A stretch of DNA of 43,379 nucleotides. Origin: Mycobacterium sp. Root265. GTDB taxonomy: Bacteria > Actinomycetota > Actinomycetes > Mycobacteriales > Mycobacteriaceae. Positions 5,121-15,142 of this stretch are shown piece after piece (position 1 is the first letter of the stretch; each line of letters opens with the position of its first letter). The translations under genes and the position numbers were made by a program. Under the pieces are notes generated by a model that was given only the letters and a program-made list of their open reading frames with translations, had not been told where the DNA came from and ran no database searches. The stretch is taken from NCBI RefSeq assembly GCF_001428895.1, contig NZ_LMJA01000016.1, forward strand, positions 1 through 43,379, read 5' to 3'.

Positions 5121-6887
5121 CTACTCCGGCTTGTTCGAGTCCAGCTTGTGGTATCGGGTGACCAGATCGAAGTTGTCGCCGTAGTGGCCGGCGCCGGTGA
5201 CGACTGCCCGTTCGACGAGTTCGGTGCTGCGCCGGTCCACCACCACGATCCGGTCCGTGCGCAGATCCTTGTAGAGCGCCACACACAGCAGCACCATGAC
5301 GATGACGAACGGCACCGCGGCAACGATCGTGAGGTTCTGCAGGCCGGTCAGCGCATCCGCGCCGCCCCCGCCGATGATCAGCATGATCGCGGCCACGGCG
5401 CCGGTGAGCGCACCCCAGAACACCACCGTGGCACGACGGGGCTCATGAGAGCCCTTCTCGGACAACGAGCCCATGACGATCGAGGCGGCGTCGGCGCCGG
5501 AGACGAAGAAGATGGCCACCAGCACCATCACCAGCACGGTGGTGATGCCCGCCAACGGCATGGTGTCGAGCAACTGGAACAGCGCGCCGGTGCTGTCCAC
5601 GCCGCCTTCCGCGTCGACCATGTCGCCGACGGTGCGTTGCCGGTCGATCCCCGCGCCGCCGAAGATGACGAACCACACCAGGCTGACCGTCGTCGGGACC
5701 AGCAGCACGCCGGTGACGAACTGCCGGATGGTGCGGCCGCGGCTGATGCGGGCGATGAACATGCCGACGAACGGAGTCCAGGACACCCACCACGCCCAGT
5801 AGAAGATGGTCCAGCCCGACAGCCAGGCCGCGAGTTCGGCGTCACCGTTGGCGTCGGTGCGGGCGCTCATGGCCACGAAGTCGCGGATGTAGTCACCCAG
5901 TGCGCTCGGAACGAGGTTGAGAATCAACAACGTCGGGCCGGCGACGAACACGAACACCGCCAGGATCAAAGCCAGCACCATGTTGATGTTGGACAGCCAC
6001 TGGATGCCGCGGGCGATGCCCGATACCGCGGACAGGATGAACGCCACCGTCAGCACCGCGATGATCGCCACCAGGATCGGGGTGCCCACGGTGCCCACCC
6101 AGCCGTTGAACTCCAGCCCATCTCCGATCTGCAGGGCGCCGAGCCCGAGAGAGGCCGCGGACCCGAACAGGGTCGCGAAGATCGCGAGGATGTCGATGAC
6201 CTTGCCGGCGGGCCCGTTTGCGCGGTCACCGAACAGCGAGGTGAACGCCGCCGACAACAGCCCCGGCCGGCCCTTGCGGTACATCCCGTAGCCGATCGCG
6301 AGCCCCACCACCGCGTAGATGGCCCACGGGTGCAGGCCCCAGTGGAACATGGTGGTGGCCATCGCCGTCTGGAACGCCTCATCGGACTGTGCCTCGGTGG
6401 TGCCCGGAGGCGGGGTGACGAAATGATTCAGCGGCTCGGCGACACCCCAGAACATCAGGCCGATACCCATGCCCGCGCTGAACATCATCGCGATCCAGGA
6501 GATGGTCTTGAACTCCGGTTCTTCGTCATCGCAGCCGAGCGGGATGCGGCCGTACTTGCTGGCGGCCAGCCACAGCACGAAGACGACGAAGAAGCTCGCC
6601 GCCAGGACGAAGAACCAGCCCAGGCCCTTGATGGCCGCGTCCTTGGTGCCCGCGGACACCGCGGACAACCCCGGGGTGTCGATCAGACCCCACAGCACAA
6701 AGGCGATCGAGATGACGCCGGTGACACCGAACACCACCCAGTCGCGGCCGGGATTGGCGTCGGTGGGGGCGATGCGGCCGGTGATGGGCGCCAACGGATG
6801 TTCTTGGTGGGAGGTGGCCACGTTGGCGACGTCGTCGGGTTCTGAAGCGGACGCGGGCCCGGAGGCACCGTTCGTGTCGAGCGACAT
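5121..6887 (-). CDS. BCCT family glycine betaine/carnitine-type transporter
   Basis: This 588-aa protein is a BetP-like sodium- or proton-coupled carrier of trimethylammonium compounds. It has about twelve membrane segments, the Gly-rich helix MFSAGMGIGLMFWGVAEP (residues 135-152, like the GMGIG of BetP) and the family signature with the Trp cluster WAWWVSWTPF (364-373) followed by RISRGRTIRQF. An approximately 45-residue polar N-terminus precedes the first helix; the C-terminal tail is charged but not long. ATG at 6887 has a GAGGA ribosome binding site. A 103-base gap with a dyad pair separates it from sdaA, so it is probably transcribed from its own regulated promoter. Context makes glycine betaine the likely substrate; carnitine or choline cannot be excluded. 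Confidence 0.92.
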   Translation of the reverse strand: MSLDTNGASGPASASEPDDVANVATSHQEHPLAPITGRIAPTDANPGRDWVVFGVTGVISIAFVLWGLIDTPGLSAVSAGTKDAAIKGLGWFFVLAASFFVVFVLWLAASKYGRIPLGCDDEEPEFKTISWIAMMFSAGMGIGLMFWGVAEPLNHFVTPPPGTTEAQSDEAFQTAMATTMFHWGLHPWAIYAVVGLAIGYGMYRKGRPGLLSAAFTSLFGDRANGPAGKVIDILAIFATLFGSAASLGLGALQIGDGLEFNGWVGTVGTPILVAIIAVLTVAFILSAVSGIARGIQWLSNINMVLALILAVFVFVAGPTLLILNLVPSALGDYIRDFVAMSARTDANGDAELAAWLSGWTIFYWAWWVSWTPFVGMFIARISRGRTIRQFVTGVLLVPTTVSLVWFVIFGGAGIDRQRTVGDMVDAEGGVDSTGALFQLLDTMPLAGITTVLVMVLVAIFFVSGADAASIVMGSLSEKGSHEPRRATVVFWGALTGAVAAIMLIIGGGGADALTGLQNLTIVAAVPFVIVMVLLCVALYKDLRTDRIVVVDRRSTELVERAVVTGAGHYGDNFDLVTRYHKLDSNKPE

Positions 6888-6916: not shown

Positions 6917-6953
6917 TGTTGCGAATAACGCACTCGTTGCGTATTAAACAACA
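6917..6953. promoter_or_regulatory. Paired dyad operator in front of the BCCT gene
   Basis: Two 15-bp imperfect palindromes fitting TTGCG-N5-CGCAA start at 6919 (TTGCGAATAACGCAC, 9 of 10 fixed positions) and 6937 (TTGCGTATTAAACAA, 8 of 10), exactly 18 bp apart. The same arrangement and spacing occurs at 13976-14012. On the minus strand a TTGTTT / TTATTC pair with a 17-bp spacer (6951-6946 and 6928-6923) lies inside the element and could be the promoter, giving a leader of about 29 bases. I infer binding by the IclR protein encoded at 8370-9197. Confidence 0.65.
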
Positions 6954-6990
6954 CTTTGGGTCTGGGCGCGTGCCAAACCGTGTTCGTTCC

Positions 6991-8358
6991 TCAGCATTCG
7001 ACGACGTTGAGCGCGAGGCCGCCCAGCGAGGTCTCCTTGTATTTCTCGGCCATGTCGGCACCGGTGTCGCGCATCGTCTTGATGGCGGTGTCCAGGTCAA
7101 CATGATGAATACCGTCGCCGCGCAACGCCATTCGCGCCGCGGTGATCGCCTTGACCGAAGCCACGGCGTTGCGTTCGATGCACGGGATCTGCACCAGACC
7201 GCCGACCGGATCGCAGGTGAGGCCCAGATTGTGCTCCAGTCCGATCTCCGCGGCGTTCTCCACCTGGGCGGGTGTGCCGCCCAGCACTTCGGCCAGACCG
7301 GCCGCCGCCATCGCGCACGCCGAACCGACCTCGCCCTGACAGCCCACCTCTGCTCCCGAGATGGATGCGTTGGTCTTGCACAGGATGCCCACGGCGCCCG
7401 CGGTCAACAGGAACCGGACCACCGCGTCGTCATCGAAATCCGGGACGAAATCGCGGCAGTAGTGCAGCACCGCAGGCACGATGCCCGCGGCCCCGTTGGT
7501 CGGTGCGGTCACCACCCGGCCGCCGGCGGCGTTCTCCTCATTGACCGCAAGGGCATACAGCGCAACCCAATCCATCGCCTCCAGGGGGTCACGCGCGTCG
7601 GGATGCGTTTCGAGCTCGTGGTGCCACGCCGCGGCGCGGCGGCGCACCCGCAGTCCTCCCGGCAGCACCCCGCCGTGGACCAGGCCGCGGTTCACGCACT
7701 GCTGCATCACCTCCCAGATGGCGAGCAGTTCCTCACGCACCTGGGGGGCCGGCCGCAGCTCGGATTCGTTGGCCAGCATCAGCGCGCTGACGGGCAGACC
7801 CGTGCCCGCGGTCAGGTCGAGCAATTCGTGCGAGGTGCGGAAGGGGTACGGCACCGCGCGGTCGGTGCTGATGGCGGCCGAGGTGATTTCATCCTCGTCG
7901 ACCACGAATCCGCCACCGACGGAGAAGTATTGACGCGTCGCAAGGACGTCGCCGGCCGCGTCGGAGGCGCGGAAGAGCATCCCGTTGCTGTGGTGGGCCA
8001 GCGACGTGCCCACGTGCAGCACAATGTCCTCGTCCACGGCGAAGGGCACCGACTGCCGGCCGCCGAGGGCAAGCTTGCCCTGGGCCCGCACCGCCGCCAG
8101 TCGGTCCGGAATCGACTCCGGGTCAACGGACTCGGGCTGCTCGCCGAGCAGCCCGAGGATCACAGCGGTGACCGAGCCATGCCCCTGGCCGGTCGCGCCC
8201 AGCGAGCCGAAGAGTTCCACCTGAACTCCGGCGGTGGCGCTCAGCAGGTCGCGGTCGGACAGCCATCCGACGAACCGGTCGGCGGCGCGCATCGGTCCGA
8301 CGGTGTGCGAACTCGACGGTCCGATACCGACTTTGAACAGCTCGAAGACGCTGATCAC
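6991..8358 (-). CDS. sdaA: L-serine dehydratase, iron-sulfur type, single chain
   Basis: The 455-aa enzyme converts L-serine to pyruvate and ammonia. The beta-type domain opens with [20 protein letters not shown]; the alpha domain carries Cys340 ([17 protein letters not shown]), Cys382 ([14 protein letters not shown]) and Cys393, the three [4Fe-4S] ligands of the type 2 (single-chain) family. The chain ends exactly in Cys (ALNVVEC), matching the 'tail-in-mouth' C-terminal Cys that caps the cluster in the Legionella enzyme. Translation starts at a GTG at 8358, 11 bases after the IclR stop. In this operon it supplies the final step, turning serine made from betaine-derived glycine into pyruvate. 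Confidence 0.95.
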
Positions 8359-8369
8359 GGCCGGACCAG

Positions 8370-9197
8370 TCAGCCGGTGAACCCGAGGCGACGGCTGATC
8401 TGTTCAGCGGCCATCATGGTCATCGCGGCCACCTCGTCGAATCGGGAGGGATCCAAACGGTATGCCGGCCCCGAAACGCTCAGAGCGGCAATGGCTTTAC
8501 CGGTGCTGTCGCGAACGGGAACGCCGACGGCATTGAGGCCGATCTCCAGTTCCTCGCACACACTGGCCCACCCCTTGCGGCGGACCTCGGCCAACTCGGC
8601 GGCCAGCGCGACGCTGTCGGCGATGGTGCTGTCGGTGAAGGTCGCCAGCGTGTCACCGGTCAGCTCGCGCACCCGTTCGGCGGGCAGCGCCGAGAGCAGG
8701 GCCTTGCCGCTCGAGGTTGCGTGCGCGGGGCAGTTCTGCCCGATCCAGGTGCGCAGCGTGATCTCCGCCGGACCCAGCGTCTCGACGATGTTGATGATCC
8801 TGTCGCCGTCCAGGATCGCCACATTGATGGTCTCGCCGCACTGTTCGGCGAGCCGGTCGCAGGTGGCCTGGCTCTGCTTGGCCAGGTCCATCTGTGCGCT
8901 GGTGGAACCGGCCAGCCGGACCAGGGCGAACCCCAGCCGGTACTTGCCGCGGTCGGAGAGTTGTTCGACGAACCCGCGGGACTCCAGGACGGTGATCAGC
9001 CGGGACACCGTCGACTTGTGCACGCCGAGTTCGGTGGCGATCTCGGTGACCCCGGCGGTGCCCAGCTTGCCCAGGATCTCCAGCACCATGAGCGCCCGGT
9101 CCACCGATTGCACTGCCGCGACGGACTTCTCCCGCGGCGCAACGTCGTCGGTGTCGGCAGTCATGACGGCACCAGTGTAGACAATGGTCGCGGTCAT
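8370..9197 (-). CDS. IclR family transcriptional regulator
   Basis: The 275-aa protein has an N-terminal winged HTH ([17 protein letters not shown], then [19 protein letters not shown], about residues 29-75) and a C-terminal IclR ligand-binding domain ([20 protein letters not shown] near 157-176 and [20 protein letters not shown] near 211-230). The ATG at 9197 overlaps the Rieske gene stop (ATGA), supporting that start; an in-frame ATG at 9164 is an alternative. Lying inside the betaine catabolic operon, it is the obvious candidate to control the operon and the transporter, sensing betaine or an intermediate. The paired dyads at 6917 and 13976 are the proposed targets; activator or repressor action cannot be told. 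Confidence 0.9.
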
Positions 9198-10384
9198 ACC
9201 GGCGCCCCCGATCCGGGCCGGTCACGCAACCGTTCCTCGATCCACTGGTGGAACTCGCCGATATGGTGCTCGGAGGGCACCAGGACGCCGCCCTTGCGGT
9301 ACGCGCGTGAGGACATGGTGGGCTGCGTGCGTTCGCAGGCGTCGAAGTCCTGCTCGTTCACCCGGTGGAAAAGCTCCACCGATCGTTCCAGGTCACGGCC
9401 TTGGGCCACCACGTCGGGCAGATACAGCCAGTCGCATTCGACGACCGTGCGATCCGGGCCCAGCGGGTACATGCGGTGGAAGATCACATGGTCGGGCACG
9501 AGGTTGATGAACACGGTGGGCCGGACGGTGATCGCGTAATACCGGCGGTCCTGCTCGGGCGTCACCCCAGGGATCGCGTCCAGTCCCGCGCTGCCGTCGA
9601 TGGTGAACCCCGCCACGTCCGCACCGAACAGGGCGCCGTGCCCGACGAAGTACTGCGCGGCCAGTCCGCCGGCGAATTCCGGCAGCACCTCGGTGAGTTC
9701 CGGGTGGATGGACGCGCAGTGGTAGCACTCCATGAAGTTCTCGACGATCAGCTTCCAGTTGGCCGCCACGTCGTAGACGATGCGCCGGCCCACCGACAGG
9801 TCGGCGATACCGTAATGCTCGATGGCCTCGGGGTTGCCGAGCCGCTCGGTGACGGCACCGATGACCTCGTCTTCGAAGGACGGCGGCTCGGCGTCCAGGC
9901 ACACCCAGGCATAGCCGAGCCATTCCCGCAGCGCCACCGGCACCAGCCCGTATTCGGTGCGGTCGATACGTGCGCCCTTCTCATCGGTCAGACTGCCGAG
10001 ATTCGGTGCCGCGAAGAGCTTTCCGTCCAGTCCGTAGGTCCACGCATGGTAGGGGCACTTCAGGTGACGCTTGACCACTCCGGAGTCCTCGGAGCACAGC
10101 ATCGCCCCGCGGTGCCGGCAGACGTTCAGGAAGGCATTCAGGGCACCGTCGCGGCCCCGCACCACGAGTACGCTCTCCCGGCCCACCTGGATTCTGCGGA
10201 ACGCGCCGGGGGAGGGCAGATCCGCGCCGCGTACTGCGCAGAACCACATGCGTTCGAAGATGCGGTCCTGCTCGGCTTCGAATATCGCTGTCTCGTAATA
10301 GTATCGGCCGCTCAGGGTGGGCATCAGGTTGCCGCCGGCGGGCGCGCCGGCCGGCAGGGGCCGCGATTCGTCGATCGTGGTCAT
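9194..10384 (-). CDS. Rieske non-heme iron oxygenase, probable glycine betaine monooxygenase (GbcA-like)
   Basis: The 396-aa protein has a Rieske centre, Cys89-x-His91 and Cys110-x2-His113 ([10 protein letters not shown] ... KCPYHAW), and a mononuclear iron site in [20 protein letters not shown] (His222, His227), with a downstream acidic ligand likely at NEQDFDACE (Asp346 or 348). This is the layout of GbcA and related N-demethylases of quaternary amines. In the proposed pathway it oxidatively demethylates glycine betaine to dimethylglycine with release of formaldehyde. Its ATG overlaps the sarcosine oxidase stop and its stop overlaps the IclR start (both ATGA). The matching ferredoxin-reductase (GbcB-type) is not in the window. 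A stachydrine- or carnitine-type demethylase is the alternative; the neighbours favour glycine betaine. Confidence 0.87.
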
Positions 10385-11523
10385 GTGGTCACCAGTCGTG
10401 TGGGGTCGAACAGTCCGATGGGGTGCGCGGTGGTCCCGGTGGTGGCCAGATCGGCCAGCACCTCGCCGACGACCGGGACGAATTTGAACCCGTGTCCCGA
10501 GAAGCCGCATGCCACCGTGACATTGGTGAATCGATCCGGGCGGGTGATGACGAAATGCTCATCCGGGGTGTTCGAGTACATGCAGGTTGCGGTGTGCACC
10601 GCCGGGCCGGTCAGCGCGGACAGCAGCTGGATGGCCCGTTCGCGCATCTCGTCGATCTCTTGCGGGTGCACGGTCCGGTCGATGGTTTCCGGTGTGCACA
10701 CCTGGCCCTTGCGGAAGAAGGCCACCTTGACGCCGCCCGCAGGTCCATCGATGGCCGGGAACCCGTAGATCTGCTGGCCGACGGCGTTCTCGTGGATGAA
10801 GATCGGATGGTCCTCGAACGGTGCCGTTCCGCCGGCCGGGTCCAGCCAGTACAGCACCTGACGCTCGATCGTGATCGGAATACCCAGCTCGTTCAAGAGT
10901 TCCGGCGCCCAGGCGCCCGGGCAGATCACCAGTTGCCCGGCGGTGTAGCTACCGGTCGCGGTGGTCACCGTCACGCCCTGCGGGCCGTCGGCCCACACCT
11001 GCACCTCTTCGCCGAAGCGCAGTGTGGCGCCTTCGCGTGCCGCCAGATCGAGATGTGCCTGCACGGTCATCTCGGGTCGGGCGAAGCCTGCCTTGGCCTC
11101 GTAGAGAGCGACATCGCCGGGGCTGGGGGTGAAGGTGGGGAAGCGACGGCGGAGCTCGGCGGCATCCAGCATCTCGTGCGGCAGTGACCATTGCAGCGCG
11201 GCGCGTTGGCTGCCGGCGACGGTCAGGCAGTCGGGTGGGCCTACGAACACGCCTCCGGTGAGCCGGTACACCTCCCGCCCGGTGCTCTGCTGTAGTTCTG
11301 CCCACAGTTCATAGGCCCGCAGCAACAGGGGTACATAGGCGGGGTCCTCGAAATAGGACTGCCGGATGATGCGCGAACCGCCGTGGCTGGAACCGCGGTC
11401 GTGGGCCGGGGTGAACTTCTCCAGGCCGAGCACCCGGACCCCGCGCCGCGCCAGGTGATAGGTGGCGGCGCTGCCCATCCCGCCCAGCCCGACGACGATG
11501 ACGTCATAACTGTTGTCGCTCAC
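10381..11523 (-). CDS. soxA: Monomeric sarcosine oxidase (SoxA/MTOX family)
   Basis: The 380-aa flavoprotein starts with the dinucleotide-binding motif [13 protein letters not shown] (residues 8-20) and keeps the monomeric sarcosine oxidase landmarks: [15 protein letters not shown] near 45-59, Cys314 in [14 protein letters not shown], which corresponds to the covalent FAD-Cys of the Bacillus enzyme, and [12 protein letters not shown] near the C-terminus. It oxidises sarcosine to glycine, formaldehyde and hydrogen peroxide. GTG at 11523 lies one base after the dimethylglycine oxidase stop with a GGAG site before it. Length is normal for the family (about 385-390). N-methyltryptophan oxidase is the close alternative but context supports sarcosine. 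Confidence 0.92.
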
Positions 11524-11524
11524 G

Positions 11525-13963
11525 TCATCTCCGGATCAGCGTCATGTCGGGGTCGACGACCGGCTCGGCATGCACGGTCGCCGAGAAGTTGGTCATCAGG
11601 TACGCCACACTCACCGCCGTACCCACCGCTGTGTCGGCGGGCAGCCACGCGTAGGCAATGCTGCGGCCGAGGGTGGCCGAGTATCCGGCGCTGGTCACAT
11701 AGCCGCCCACGGCGCCGTCGATGCTGACCGGCTCCTTGCCGAGTACCACCGCGCGGGGGTCATCGAAGACGATGCTGCGCAGCACCTTCGCCGGGGCGGG
11801 AGCGGTGTCCAGTGCCGCCTTGCCGAGGAAGTCACCCTTCTTGCCCGACACCGCGAACCCGACACCGGCCGCGGCCGGTAGGTGTTCGGCGGTCATATCG
11901 GTGCCCCAGGACCGGTAGCCCTTTTCCATCCGGAGGCTGTTGAAGGCGATGCGGCCGGCGGCGATCGCGCGGTACTGCCGGCCGGCCGTGGCCAGCAGAT
12001 CCCACAACTTGAGGCCGTGTTCGGCGGAAGCATAGATCTCCCAGCCCAATTCGCCGACATAGGAGACCCGCATCATCGTGACGGGGACCGATCCGATGAA
12101 TGTCGTGAGGGCGCGGAAGTAGCCGAACGACTCGTGGGAGATGTCGGCCGCGCACAACGGTGCGACGAGGTCGCGGGCGCGCGGCCCCCACACCCCGATG
12201 CAGCAGGTGCCGCCGGTGATGTCCCGTACCGTCACCCCGGTCTCCGGCAGCCGGCGCAGCATCCAGTCCATGTCCAGTGGGCCGTTTGCGCCCACCTGGA
12301 ACACGGTGTCGCCCAGGCGGGCGACCGTGAGATCGCCGCGGATGCCGCCGGATTCATCGAGCATCAGGGTGTAGGTGACCGACCCGGTGCGCTTGTCGAC
12401 GTTGTTGGTCGTGAGGTGCTGCAGGAATGCGCACGCGCCGGGTCCGCCTACCTCGTAGCGGGTCAGCGGCGTCATGTCGTAGAGAGCGACGTGCTCGCGG
12501 GTCCAGCGCGCCTCGGCGATGGAAATGGGGGAGTAGAACCGGCCCGACCAGTCGTCGCGGTCCGGGAACGCGAGCCCGGTATCGGCGAGTTCGCCCACCA
12601 GCGTGGCGTTGGCCTCATACCAGGCCGGTCGCTCCCAGCAGCCGCCCTCGAAGAAATGCGCGCCGAGTTCGCGCTGCCGGGCGTGGAACGGGCTGACCCG
12701 CAGATCGCGCGGTTCGGTGCGGTATTGGTGCGGATGCACGATGTCGTACACCTCGGCGAAGGCCTGCGAGCTGGTCTTGAGGATGAACTCCGGGCTCTTG
12801 GCCGGCTCCTCGAACCGATAGAGGTCGCATTCGTGGACGTCGGTGGCGGGTGCGCCGTCGAGGATCCACTCGGCCATCGCCTTGGCCACCCCGGCGGAAT
12901 GCGTGACCCATACCGCCTCGGCGACCCAGAATCCGGGTAGCTCGCGGTGTTCGCCCATCAGGGAGAAGCCGTCGGGGGTGAACGAGAAGATGCCGTTGAA
13001 GGCCTCCTCGACCTTCGAATCACTCAGCACGGGAAGCAGTTCGGTGCTGGCCTCCCAGCCGGGTGCGAAGTCGTCGTCGGTGAACGGCAGCATCGACGGC
13101 ATTGCCTCACCCGCCGTCTCGGTCAGCAACGTCGTCATCTCCACCGGCATCGGCCGGTGCCCGTAGTATCCGATGCCCAGCCGGTCGCCGTGCTCGCGGT
13201 AGTAGAGGTCCTGATCCTGGTGGCGCAGGATCGGCAGCCGCGCGTCGTCCGCTGCCAGTCCCTCGCGCCGCAGCGCAGCCACCTGACCGGTCTTGGCGTA
13301 CTGATGTGCCATCGGGACCAGCGGCACCGTCAGCCCGACCCGCGCCCCGAGTTCGGCACCCCAGAAGCCGGCGGCCGACACCACCACGTCGGCGGCGAAC
13401 TCGTCGCCCGCGGCGGTCCGGACACCGATGACACGTCCGCCCCGATCGAGGACGTCCACCACTTCGTGGTGCCCGAGGAACCGGGCGCCACGGGCGATGG
13501 CGCGCTCGGCCTGTGCGGTGGCCGCGCGCAGTGCCTTGGCCAGGCCATCGGACGGGGTGTGGAAACCGCCCAGTATCCGGTCGGCATCGAGCAGTGGATG
13601 CAGGGCCGCGCACTGCTGGGGATCGATGAGCTCGCCCTGGATTCCCCATGACCGGGCCCAGCCGTGCTTGCGGTGCAGATCGGTCCAGCGGGCTTCGGTG
13701 GTGGCCACCTCGAGGCCGCCGACCTGGTTGAACGCGTCGAGTCCGACGAACTTCTCCACCGTGTAGCGCGCGAACTCGCTCATGGTCTTCGATCCGTTGG
13801 TCTGGAACACCAGGCCGGGGGCGTGCGACGTGGAGCCGCCGGTGGCGAACAGCGGCCCGCGGTCCAGGACGGTCACGTCTGTGCACCCGCGGGCGGTCAG
13901 TTCATCGGCCAGGGACGTGCCGACGATTCCTGCGCCGATGACGACGACTTTGGGGTGGTTCAT
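11525..13963 (-). CDS. Dimethylglycine oxidase/dehydrogenase with GcvT domains
   Basis: The 812-aa protein is a fusion: an FAD-dependent DAO domain ([17 protein letters not shown] near residues 10-26, [15 protein letters not shown] near 44), a central FAO_M-like linker (to about 430) and a folate-binding GcvT domain with C-terminal barrel ([30 protein letters not shown]). This matches dimethylglycine oxidase of Arthrobacter and mitochondrial dimethylglycine dehydrogenase in order and length. It demethylates dimethylglycine to sarcosine and can pass the methylene unit to tetrahydrofolate. The ATG at 13963 has an AGGAG site 8 bases upstream, and the paired dyad at 13976-14012 lies immediately before it, so it is the first gene of the operon. 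Sarcosine dehydrogenase is the nearest alternative. Confidence 0.9.
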
Positions 13964-13975
13964 ACCCGGGGCTCC

Positions 13976-14012
13976 TGTTGCGCATTAAGCAACTACTGCG
14001 TATCGCGCAACA
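13976..14012. promoter_or_regulatory. Paired dyad operator in front of the betaine catabolic operon
   Basis: Two 15-bp dyads, TTGCGCATTAAGCAA at 13978 and CTGCGTATCGCGCAA at 13996 (each 9 of 10 for TTGCG-N5-CGCAA), are 18 bp apart as at the BCCT gene. The outer arms TGTTGCGC and GCGCAACA also form a perfect 8-bp inverted repeat. The element ends 12 bases before the ATG. The -10 could be TAATGC within the element or TATTGT (14015-14010); the first would give a very short leader, so the start of transcription is uncertain. Confidence 0.65.
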
Positions 14013-14290
14013 ATATCCCCGATGGGCGGTTCCCGCAAGATGTGCGAGCCGGCGATTCGCCTGTTGGCAGGAGCAGGGGGCGGGCGATCGTCGTGGCTCG
14101 TGAAAGAGAGTGTCCAGCAGGGCAATTCATGTCATCCGGGGTCCACGTTGCCATCCGTGCGGGTGTGCGGCACCGGGCGGCGCCGCACGGTGCGAGGCGC
14201 GAACGGGTCCGGCGCTGTAGCCGACCACCATCGGGCGGCTGCTCGTACAGTGGTCATGAGATCAGCTAAAAGTATTGTGGGAGGCTCACT
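14013..14290. other. Divergent intergenic region between the betaine operon and viuB
   Basis: These 278 bases hold the upstream part of the betaine operon promoter and the viuB leader. I see no convincing gene: short open frames here have no codon or motif support. A GGGAGG ribosome binding site at 14279-14284 serves viuB. No IdeR iron box (TTAGG...CCTAA type) is visible, although viuB is an iron-related gene. A weak plus-strand TCGTAC / CTAAAA pair with 17-bp spacing (about 14242-14270) might be its promoter. Confidence 0.4.
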
Positions 14291-15142
14291 ATGGCGGGAC
14301 GTCCGATTCACACCTTCGAGGTCATCAGCAGCGAACAGCTGGCACCGCACATGATCCGGTTGGTGCTCGGCGGTGTCGGGTTCGACACCTTCACCCCCGG
14401 CAAATACACCGATTCCTACGTCAAGATCGTCATCGTCGACCCGGATGTCGACATCGTGTCGCTGCCGCACCCGCTCACCCTGGACAGCTTCAACGTGCTG
14501 CCCGAGCACAAGCGCCCGACCGTGCGCACCTACACCGTGCGCTCGGTCGACGACTCGCTGCGCCAGATCTCCATCGACTTTGTCGTGCACGGTGAGCAGG
14601 GTGTGGCCGGCCCCTGGGCGGCCGCCGCCCAGCCCGGACAACCGGCCTATCTGATGGGACCGTCCGGCGCGTACGCCCCCGATCCCGCCGCGGACTGGCA
14701 TCTGCTGGCCGGTGACGAATCCGGGCTCCCGGCGATCAGCGCGGCCCTGGAAGCGTTGCCGCCCACCGCGATCGGCAAGGCCTTCATCGAAGTTAGCGGA
14801 CCCGACGACGAGATCGAGCTCACGTCGCCCGACGGAGTCGACGTGCACTGGATCTATCGCGGTGGACGCGCCGACCTCGTCGGCGAGGACAAGGCCGGGG
14901 ACCACGCGCCACTGGTCACCGCGGTCAAGGAGATGCTGTGGCTGCCCGGTCAGGTCCAGGTGTTTGCCCACGGCGAGGCGCAGGCCGTCATGCACAATCT
15001 GCGTCCTTACCTGCGCAAGGAACGCGGGGTGGAGGCGAAGTGGGCGTCCATCTCCGGGTACTGGCGCCGCGGTCGCACCGAAGAAACTTTCCGGCAATGG
15101 AAGGCGGAACTGGCCAAGGCGGAGGCGGGCCAGCGAGACTGA
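14291..15142 (+). CDS. viuB: Siderophore-interacting protein / ferric-siderophore reductase
   Basis: The 283-aa flavin reductase-like protein has an N-terminal FAD-binding beta-barrel with RTYTVRSVD (residues 78-86, the R-x-Y-T motif that contacts FAD) and [15 protein letters not shown], and a C-terminal SIP domain with [26 protein letters not shown] and [17 protein letters not shown]. Such proteins reduce iron from ferric siderophores in the cytoplasm with NAD(P)H. It corresponds in position to M. tuberculosis viuB next to xerC. Start ATG at 14291 has GGGAGG 6 bases upstream. Its stop is 4 bases from the next ATG, so it is cotranscribed with the lactate monooxygenase-like gene, which is not part of the M. 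tuberculosis order as I recall it. Confidence 0.9.

Follow-up and report, generated by a model that had tools for sequence, protein, structure and literature searches.

Glycine betaine use was examined in a 43,379-nucleotide stretch of Mycobacterium sp. Root265 (NZ_LMJA01000016.1, hereafter the window; part of contig C16 of a 6.67-Mb genome), where two 37-bp elements flank the gene of an IclR-family regulator (8370-9164, - strand). We regard these elements, with good confidence, as tandem operators of that IclR, on which two dimers, forming a tetramer, would repress both a betaine catabolic operon and a BCCT-family transporter gene until betaine or one of its breakdown products releases them. 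The paired site is very likely the docking site of the local IclR, since paired sites of the same kind accompany the gene of this regulator in many relatives. For mycobacteria and other actinobacteria, this supplies a concrete binding site and a regulator of betaine use, both open to experimental test. The two elements are as follows.

6917..6953, no strand assigned: tandem operator of the BCCT gene, TGTTGCGAATAACGCACTCGTTGCGTATTAAACAACA, ending 29 bp ahead of the ATG at 6887
13976..14012, no strand assigned: tandem operator of the catabolic operon, TGTTGCGCATTAAGCAACTACTGCGTATCGCGCAACA, ending 12 bp ahead of the ATG at 13963

A preliminary description of this DNA had given these positions and lengths, and its account of a common start (TGTTGCG), a common end (CAACA) and a central TGCGTAT, which lies at equal offset in the two, agrees with both elements as read, as does its placement of one ahead of the transporter gene, the other ahead of the catabolic operon, and iclR between them. 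It had further ascribed to each element two TTGCG-N5-CGCAA dyads exactly 18 bp apart; the 18-bp distance between centres holds, but none of the four dyads is perfect, the element at 6917-6953 having 1 and 2 mismatches and that at 13976-14012 having 1 and 1. The elements are identical at 25/37 positions when aligned head to head and at 26/37 with one reversed, and because the reversed alignment agrees no less well, their direct orientation is not special.

The pairing of the dyads is what sets these elements apart. A whole-genome search for two dyads 18 bp apart that allowed 3 mismatches in 20 returned these two elements only, in line with the earlier statement that the form had been found nowhere else, and the reversed-pattern control returned 0 matches. 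Within the window, 2 pairs were observed at this setting, whereas 300 sequences simulated under a first-order Markov model averaged 0.003 and none of them produced two. Taken singly, dyads of up to 2 mismatches are no more frequent in the window than chance would give (25 observed vs 27.5 expected from shuffles), and single TGTTGCG-N5-CGCAACA dyads at the same tolerance are not commoner genome-wide than their control (16 vs 29). One additional dyad pair in the window has a spacing of 28. A 19-bp-spaced double dyad with 3 mismatches has one match genome-wide (G000:C9:153195-153228), probably by chance.

Conservation at orthologous promoters, which the preliminary description had proposed as a check, was investigated in 75 related loci together with the window, comprising 45 loci from an IclR protein search of named genomes and 20 regions and 10 stretches from other relatives. 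Because these loci are related and partly overlapping, the site counts drawn from them are not independent, and start-codon distances outside the window refer to the starts of tblastn matches. Tandem dyads were found before the relatives' dimethylglycine oxidase/dehydrogenase-like (DMGDH), Rieske oxygenase (GbcA-like), iclR, glyA and BCCT genes, which supports the interpretation of an operator shared by transporter and catabolic operon near IclR. By examining 344 gene upstreams over spacings of 12-30, we identified 107 in which the highest-scoring tandem pair matches at 18/24 positions or more, a score attained by 39 of 6880 mononucleotide shuffles; 25 of these 107 pairs are spaced at 18, 81 at 19, 1 at 20 and 0 at the other 16 spacings. 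Pairs with at least 20/24 matches at spacing 18 or 19 number 77 in 136 kb of masked upstream DNA vs 3 in the remaining 1.25 Mb, and those 3 stand before BCCT or SHMT genes that the upstream mask had missed; at other spacings, 2 such pairs lie in the masked upstreams and 0 in the remainder. On the IclR tree, operator-bearing loci fall in the Mycobacteriaceae, Nocardiaceae (Williamsia), Gordoniaceae (the single locus L013), Geodermatophilaceae and Micromonosporaceae. A family-wide pattern scan at 3 mismatches was noisy, its reversed control also matching many genomes; among the matches listed, sites at 0.1-11 kb from the IclR match occur in G000, G015, G152, G215, G258 and G260.

The sites track the genes as operons are rearranged, standing before DMGDH, GbcA, iclR or glyA. 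The closest relative (L004) carries both elements, each ahead of the corresponding gene, and L005 likewise has both; in L007, whose contig begins within the DMGDH gene, the transporter element is present. The transporter site is kept in these three of the six close relatives with BCCT downstream of iclR. The catabolic element was noted in L006, L008, L109 and L111, and a BCCT match is absent from L110 and L111. About 60-20 bp upstream of the BCCT gene at 10908, L008 carries a decayed-looking transporter operator in which TGTCTAATACGCA is retained and the ends are altered, as if separate promoter control had been abandoned with BCCT right behind iclR. Two tandem operators 99 bp apart lie ahead of GbcA in L009-L011, and L110 has two before DMGDH and a third behind iclR, ahead of glyA-sdaA. 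In other species the regulon looks wider than the two promoters originally described for the window.

The spacing between centres, 18 in the window and 18 or 19 in 106 of the 107 strong best pairs, lies within the 18-22 nt expected of tandem IclR operators. Spacing classes cluster on the IclR tree (10 changes over 66 rows vs 27.3 in shuffles) without being exclusive, the label "none" on that tree including rows whose DMGDH upstream lies in another stretch (L113, L118, L120, L121 and L122). The proposal that 18-bp spacing is fixed for one IclR clade was rejected, as L112, L117, L123 and L128 each carry both 18 and 19, and spacing is not a strict switch because single genomes hold the two together. 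Outer boxes match at 5-6 of 6 positions on both sides in 86/104 sites, and the inner boxes reach this level exactly once in 84/104 sites and on both sides in 8. At DMGDH promoters it is, on average, the downstream inner box that is strong; before iclR and at mycobacterial BCCT sites it is the upstream one. Since the strong-box side differs between DMGDH and BCCT promoters, the two window elements mirror each other in inner-box strength.

Promoter-like boxes place the operator over the start region of part of the related promoters. By eye, the following candidates were identified in the window.

14033..14038, - strand: candidate -35 of the catabolic promoter, TTGCGG, 17 bp ahead of the candidate -10
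14010..14015, - strand: candidate -10 of the catabolic promoter, TATTGT, overlapping the operator's first three bases
6971..6976, - strand: candidate -35 of the transporter promoter, TTGGCA, a weak candidate whose -10 would be TGTTGT at 6948-6953, the operator's first six bases

The same catabolic boxes and 17-bp spacer are carried by L004 and L006. Among 101 non-redundant upstreams, 19 have a TTGACA-like box (at least 5/6) starting 28-31 bp ahead of the operator, compared with a mean of 1.0 and a maximum of 6 in shuffled sequence, and these include 16 of 28 DMGDH and 2 of 2 SHMT upstreams; the boxes of the window are weaker. In those 16/28 cases the operator therefore covers the start region, and at the catabolic promoter it seems to cover the -10/start region, a placement that suits repression by blocking; such a placement is arguable for the catabolic (DMGDH) promoter and not for the iclR, GbcA or BCCT promoters. 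In the mechanism that we propose, two IclR dimers would each occupy one of the two neighboring dyads, together forming a tetramer, and since the operator begins at or just after the -10 and runs across the transcription start, the bound IclR would stop RNA polymerase from initiating. Repression would extend to the operon for dimethylglycine oxidase, sarcosine oxidase, the Rieske demethylase, IclR itself and serine ammonia-lyase, together with the BCCT transporter. Betaine or a breakdown product would then bind the C-terminal domain of IclR and release it, so that betaine uptake and breakdown to pyruvate would be switched on jointly.

To relate the operator to its regulator, 301 sampled genomes of the host family were considered, of which 56 have the IclR (E 1e-70), 72 have DMGDH (E 1e-200) and 55 have both. 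The 600 bp ahead of one DMGDH copy were examined in all 72 genomes, four of which (G024, G050, G067 and G290) hold two copies. A tandem pair with at least 19/24 matches at spacing 18-20 precedes DMGDH in 26/26 genomes with IclR identity of at least 57%, in 7/29 at 50-56% and in 2/17 below 50%; control spacings of 23-25 gave 1, 0 and 0 genomes in the three classes, and 1440 shuffles gave 0. With the cut-off relaxed to at least 17 matches the test loses specificity: the classes of 26, 29 and 17 yielded 26, 7 and 10 genomes vs 16, 5 and 0 at the control spacings, and seven of the 10 in the lowest class are members of a single genus whose site is a variant. Site strength falls with IclR identity, and operator and regulator therefore diverge together. 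Across the 66 IclR rows, conservation of the recognition helix GVHKST..R reaches 95% or more.

Two further treatments of these data were set aside. A Spearman correlation of 0.67 between IclR identity and operator score was dropped when control spacings of 23-25 also gave 0.67; one good dyad lifts the score at any spacing, and threshold counts (at least 19 matches) were used in its place. The 17 DMGDH genomes without an IclR at E 1e-70 had been taken as a control group lacking the regulator, yet at E 1e-35 each of them proved to have an IclR relative (38-49% identical), which lies less than 8 kb from DMGDH in 14 and on another contig in 3; for this reason a gradient is reported and not presence against absence. 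In G299 the nearest IclR relative (G299:C1:26856-27497) has an internal TGA, and its match sets in only at residue 50, within the HTH. No site of 17 or more matches precedes the matched genes of L022, L035, L040 and L047, four Gordonia loci whose IclR is distant.

Two described regulators, TtgV, which controls an efflux pump, and GbdR, which belongs to the AraC family, serve here as points of comparison alongside the wider IclR family. TtgV (PDB 2xrn/2xro) is itself of the IclR family and matches the window IclR in sequence. Its structure paper is cited for tetramer binding in the survey of IclR sites by Suvorova and Gelfand (2021, PMC8222616), and that survey describes group 1 sites as palindromes with GTT-11-AAC ends and the consensus GTTYCRY-W3-RYGRAAC, and predicts tandem sites at distances of 18-22 nt for 94 orthologous groups, consistent with tetramers. 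The window operators resemble these in their 17-bp palindrome, their GTT...AAC ends and their two copies with centres 18-22 nt apart, and element centres 31 and 48 nt from the start codons fall within the 20-80 nt given there (PMC8222616). They differ from this subgroup in carrying G in place of Y at base 4, which holds for 51/52 outer boxes in 26 sites, and in a spacing at the short end, 18 in the window and 19 in most relatives. A TTGCG-N5-CGCAA core of identical form is listed for TphR of Comamonas sp. E6 (Table 1, PMC8222616), although that site serves terephthalate genes and is given as a single palindrome. The words betaine, sarcosine and Mycobacterium are absent from the main text of PMC8222616, and the present IclR group may be in its supplement. 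The GbdR regulon of Pseudomonas aeruginosa (PMC3572970) likewise has a dedicated regulator of glycine betaine catabolism, but GbdR induces its targets in response to betaine, and PMC6676996 places an IclR gene beside the transporter gene proP in Streptomyces. Searches of open-licence PubMed Central texts, as far as their contents were retrieved (IclR with betaine, dimethylglycine or choline; actinobacterial betaine catabolism), found no paper on an IclR-type betaine regulator. The operator thus seems to be of a known kind, tandem IclR sites, and the betaine regulon seems to be undescribed within that open-licence literature.

Several results weigh against reading the two elements as operators through which the local IclR represses. 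The TTGACA-like boxes at 28-31 bp occur in only 1/25 GbcA, 0/37 iclR and 0/9 BCCT upstreams, and the window's own catabolic -35 fits TTGACA at just 3/6 positions and lies outside the 19. The transporter site is absent in three of the six close relatives (L006, L008 and L109), where BCCT comes directly after iclR; the 18-bp spacing is not universal, with 19 also seen and 20 in four genomes; and at its fourth base the half-site GTTGCG differs from the published consensus GTTYCRY. Moreover, 37 of the 46 genomes with DMGDH and an IclR below 57% identity are without a strong tandem site before DMGDH (9/46 have one), so that motif and regulator family do not fully coincide. Binding and repression at these sites are predictions from sequence, and IclR proteins can activate as well as repress.

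From this last property follows the rival that IclR binds the sites but activates, or does both, with an effector switching it on, for which PobR and PcaU, IclR-type activators or dual regulators, provide the model. The missing boxes at iclR upstreams favor it, and so does the distance of 141-149 bp that separates the operator from the iclR match downstream of it in most Geodermatophilaceae loci, but the position of the operator at or just after the -10 at 16/28 DMGDH promoters fits blocking better than recruiting polymerase, and activation is on balance unlikely. Considerably less probable is a different regulator encoded elsewhere, with the neighboring IclR incidental. The assignment to IclR comes from sequence inference, and the seven genomes of one genus have a weaker similar tandem site (17-18/24) with a nearest IclR just 43-44% identical; against this, iclR is the sole regulator gene identified across the loci among annotated neighbors, the site architecture suits the IclR family, and iclR is itself preceded by 37 of the 104 strong sites tallied, the one in L119 being a chance-like match in coding DNA. 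That the elements are a chance or structural repeat without a regulatory role is hardly credible, since pairs are far above chance and kept at orthologous promoters, even though single imperfect dyads in the window occur at chance frequency. Repression by the local IclR from tandem operators thus remains the reading that we prefer.

The genes that the two operators would govern are listed below.

11525..13963, - strand: dimethylglycine oxidase/dehydrogenase-like gene (DAO + GCV_T), first of the operon, with a near full-length match of 1001 bits to N,N-dimethylglycine oxidase (PDB 1pj5)
10381..11523, - strand: FAD oxidase like monomeric sarcosine oxidase/N-methyltryptophan oxidase
9194..10384, - strand: Rieske oxygenase, probable glycine betaine demethylase (GbcA-like), 211 bits to the NCBIfam GbcA model
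8370..9164, - strand: IclR-family regulator (HTH_IclR + IclR_C), the proposed repressor, with an alternative start possibly at 9197
6991..8358, - strand: L-serine ammonia-lyase, last of the operon, 677 bits to TIGR00720 (cut-off 345)
5121..6887, - strand: BCCT-family transporter, probable betaine uptake, above the cut-off of TIGR00842

On the - strand the genes are transcribed in the order dimethylglycine-oxidase-like, sarcosine-oxidase-like, Rieske, iclR and serine ammonia-lyase, so close together that they overlap or leave short gaps (1 bp after the first gene, 11 bp ahead of serine ammonia-lyase), and the separate BCCT gene follows. A Rieske demethylase, a dimethylglycine oxidase and a sarcosine oxidase side by side are what a betaine catabolic operon is expected to contain. 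The regulator belongs to the IclR family by PF09339 (57.4 bits, cut-off 22) and PF01614 (147.2 bits, cut-off 24), and its nearest match among the searched named genomes, at 94%, is from Mycolicibacterium. The Rieske protein falls below the NCBIfam GbcA equivalog cut-off (211 vs 670 bits) and the transporter below that of the betaine BCCT equivalog (573.9 vs 650 bits), its subfamily model TIGR00842 being the one reached; the substrate assignment for this reason relies on context and on the first gene's 1001-bit match. Most likely, judging from these similarities, the set provides betaine uptake, stepwise demethylation to glycine and then conversion of serine to pyruvate.

A wider reading, which we put forward tentatively and consider somewhat less than an even prospect, is that one IclR is a widespread choline/betaine regulator across several actinobacterial families, that its operator is polarized with three strong boxes and one weak, the side being set by the promoter, and that this operator also flags the missing partner of the Rieske demethylase, a ferredoxin reductase whose gene lies divergently beside the operator in several relatives. 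The candidate partner genes suggested by a common operator or cluster are glyA, purU, ferredoxin reductase and choline dehydrogenase. A ferredoxin-NAD reductase gene (HcaD-like, under the model cut-off) lies divergent to the betaine genes at L009:6887-8266, L010:106-1347, L110:6154-7506 and L114:17887-19188, and two tandem operators separate it from them in L009, L010 and L110; its product may supply the Rieske demethylase with electrons, and the best match to it in the genome of the window, at 44%, is not a close one. At L112:9530-16139 and similar loci, betaine-aldehyde-dehydrogenase-like, amino-acid-permease-like, choline-dehydrogenase-like GMC and CBS/DUF294 genes lie between the Rieske gene and iclR, a set that suggests a choline-to-pyruvate cluster by predicted function; the betaine-aldehyde- and choline-dehydrogenase-like genes of the relatives' clusters are under the specific NCBIfam cut-offs.

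There are two further minor observations. On the Gordonia contig, the BCCT match at L022:3447-5062 is split over two frames by a frameshift or a sequencing error. In the window, a siderophore-interacting FAD-reductase-like gene (14291-15142, + strand) is divergent from the catabolic operon and starts 279 bp from the catabolic operator; it has a counterpart in L004 and none in the other 74 loci scanned.

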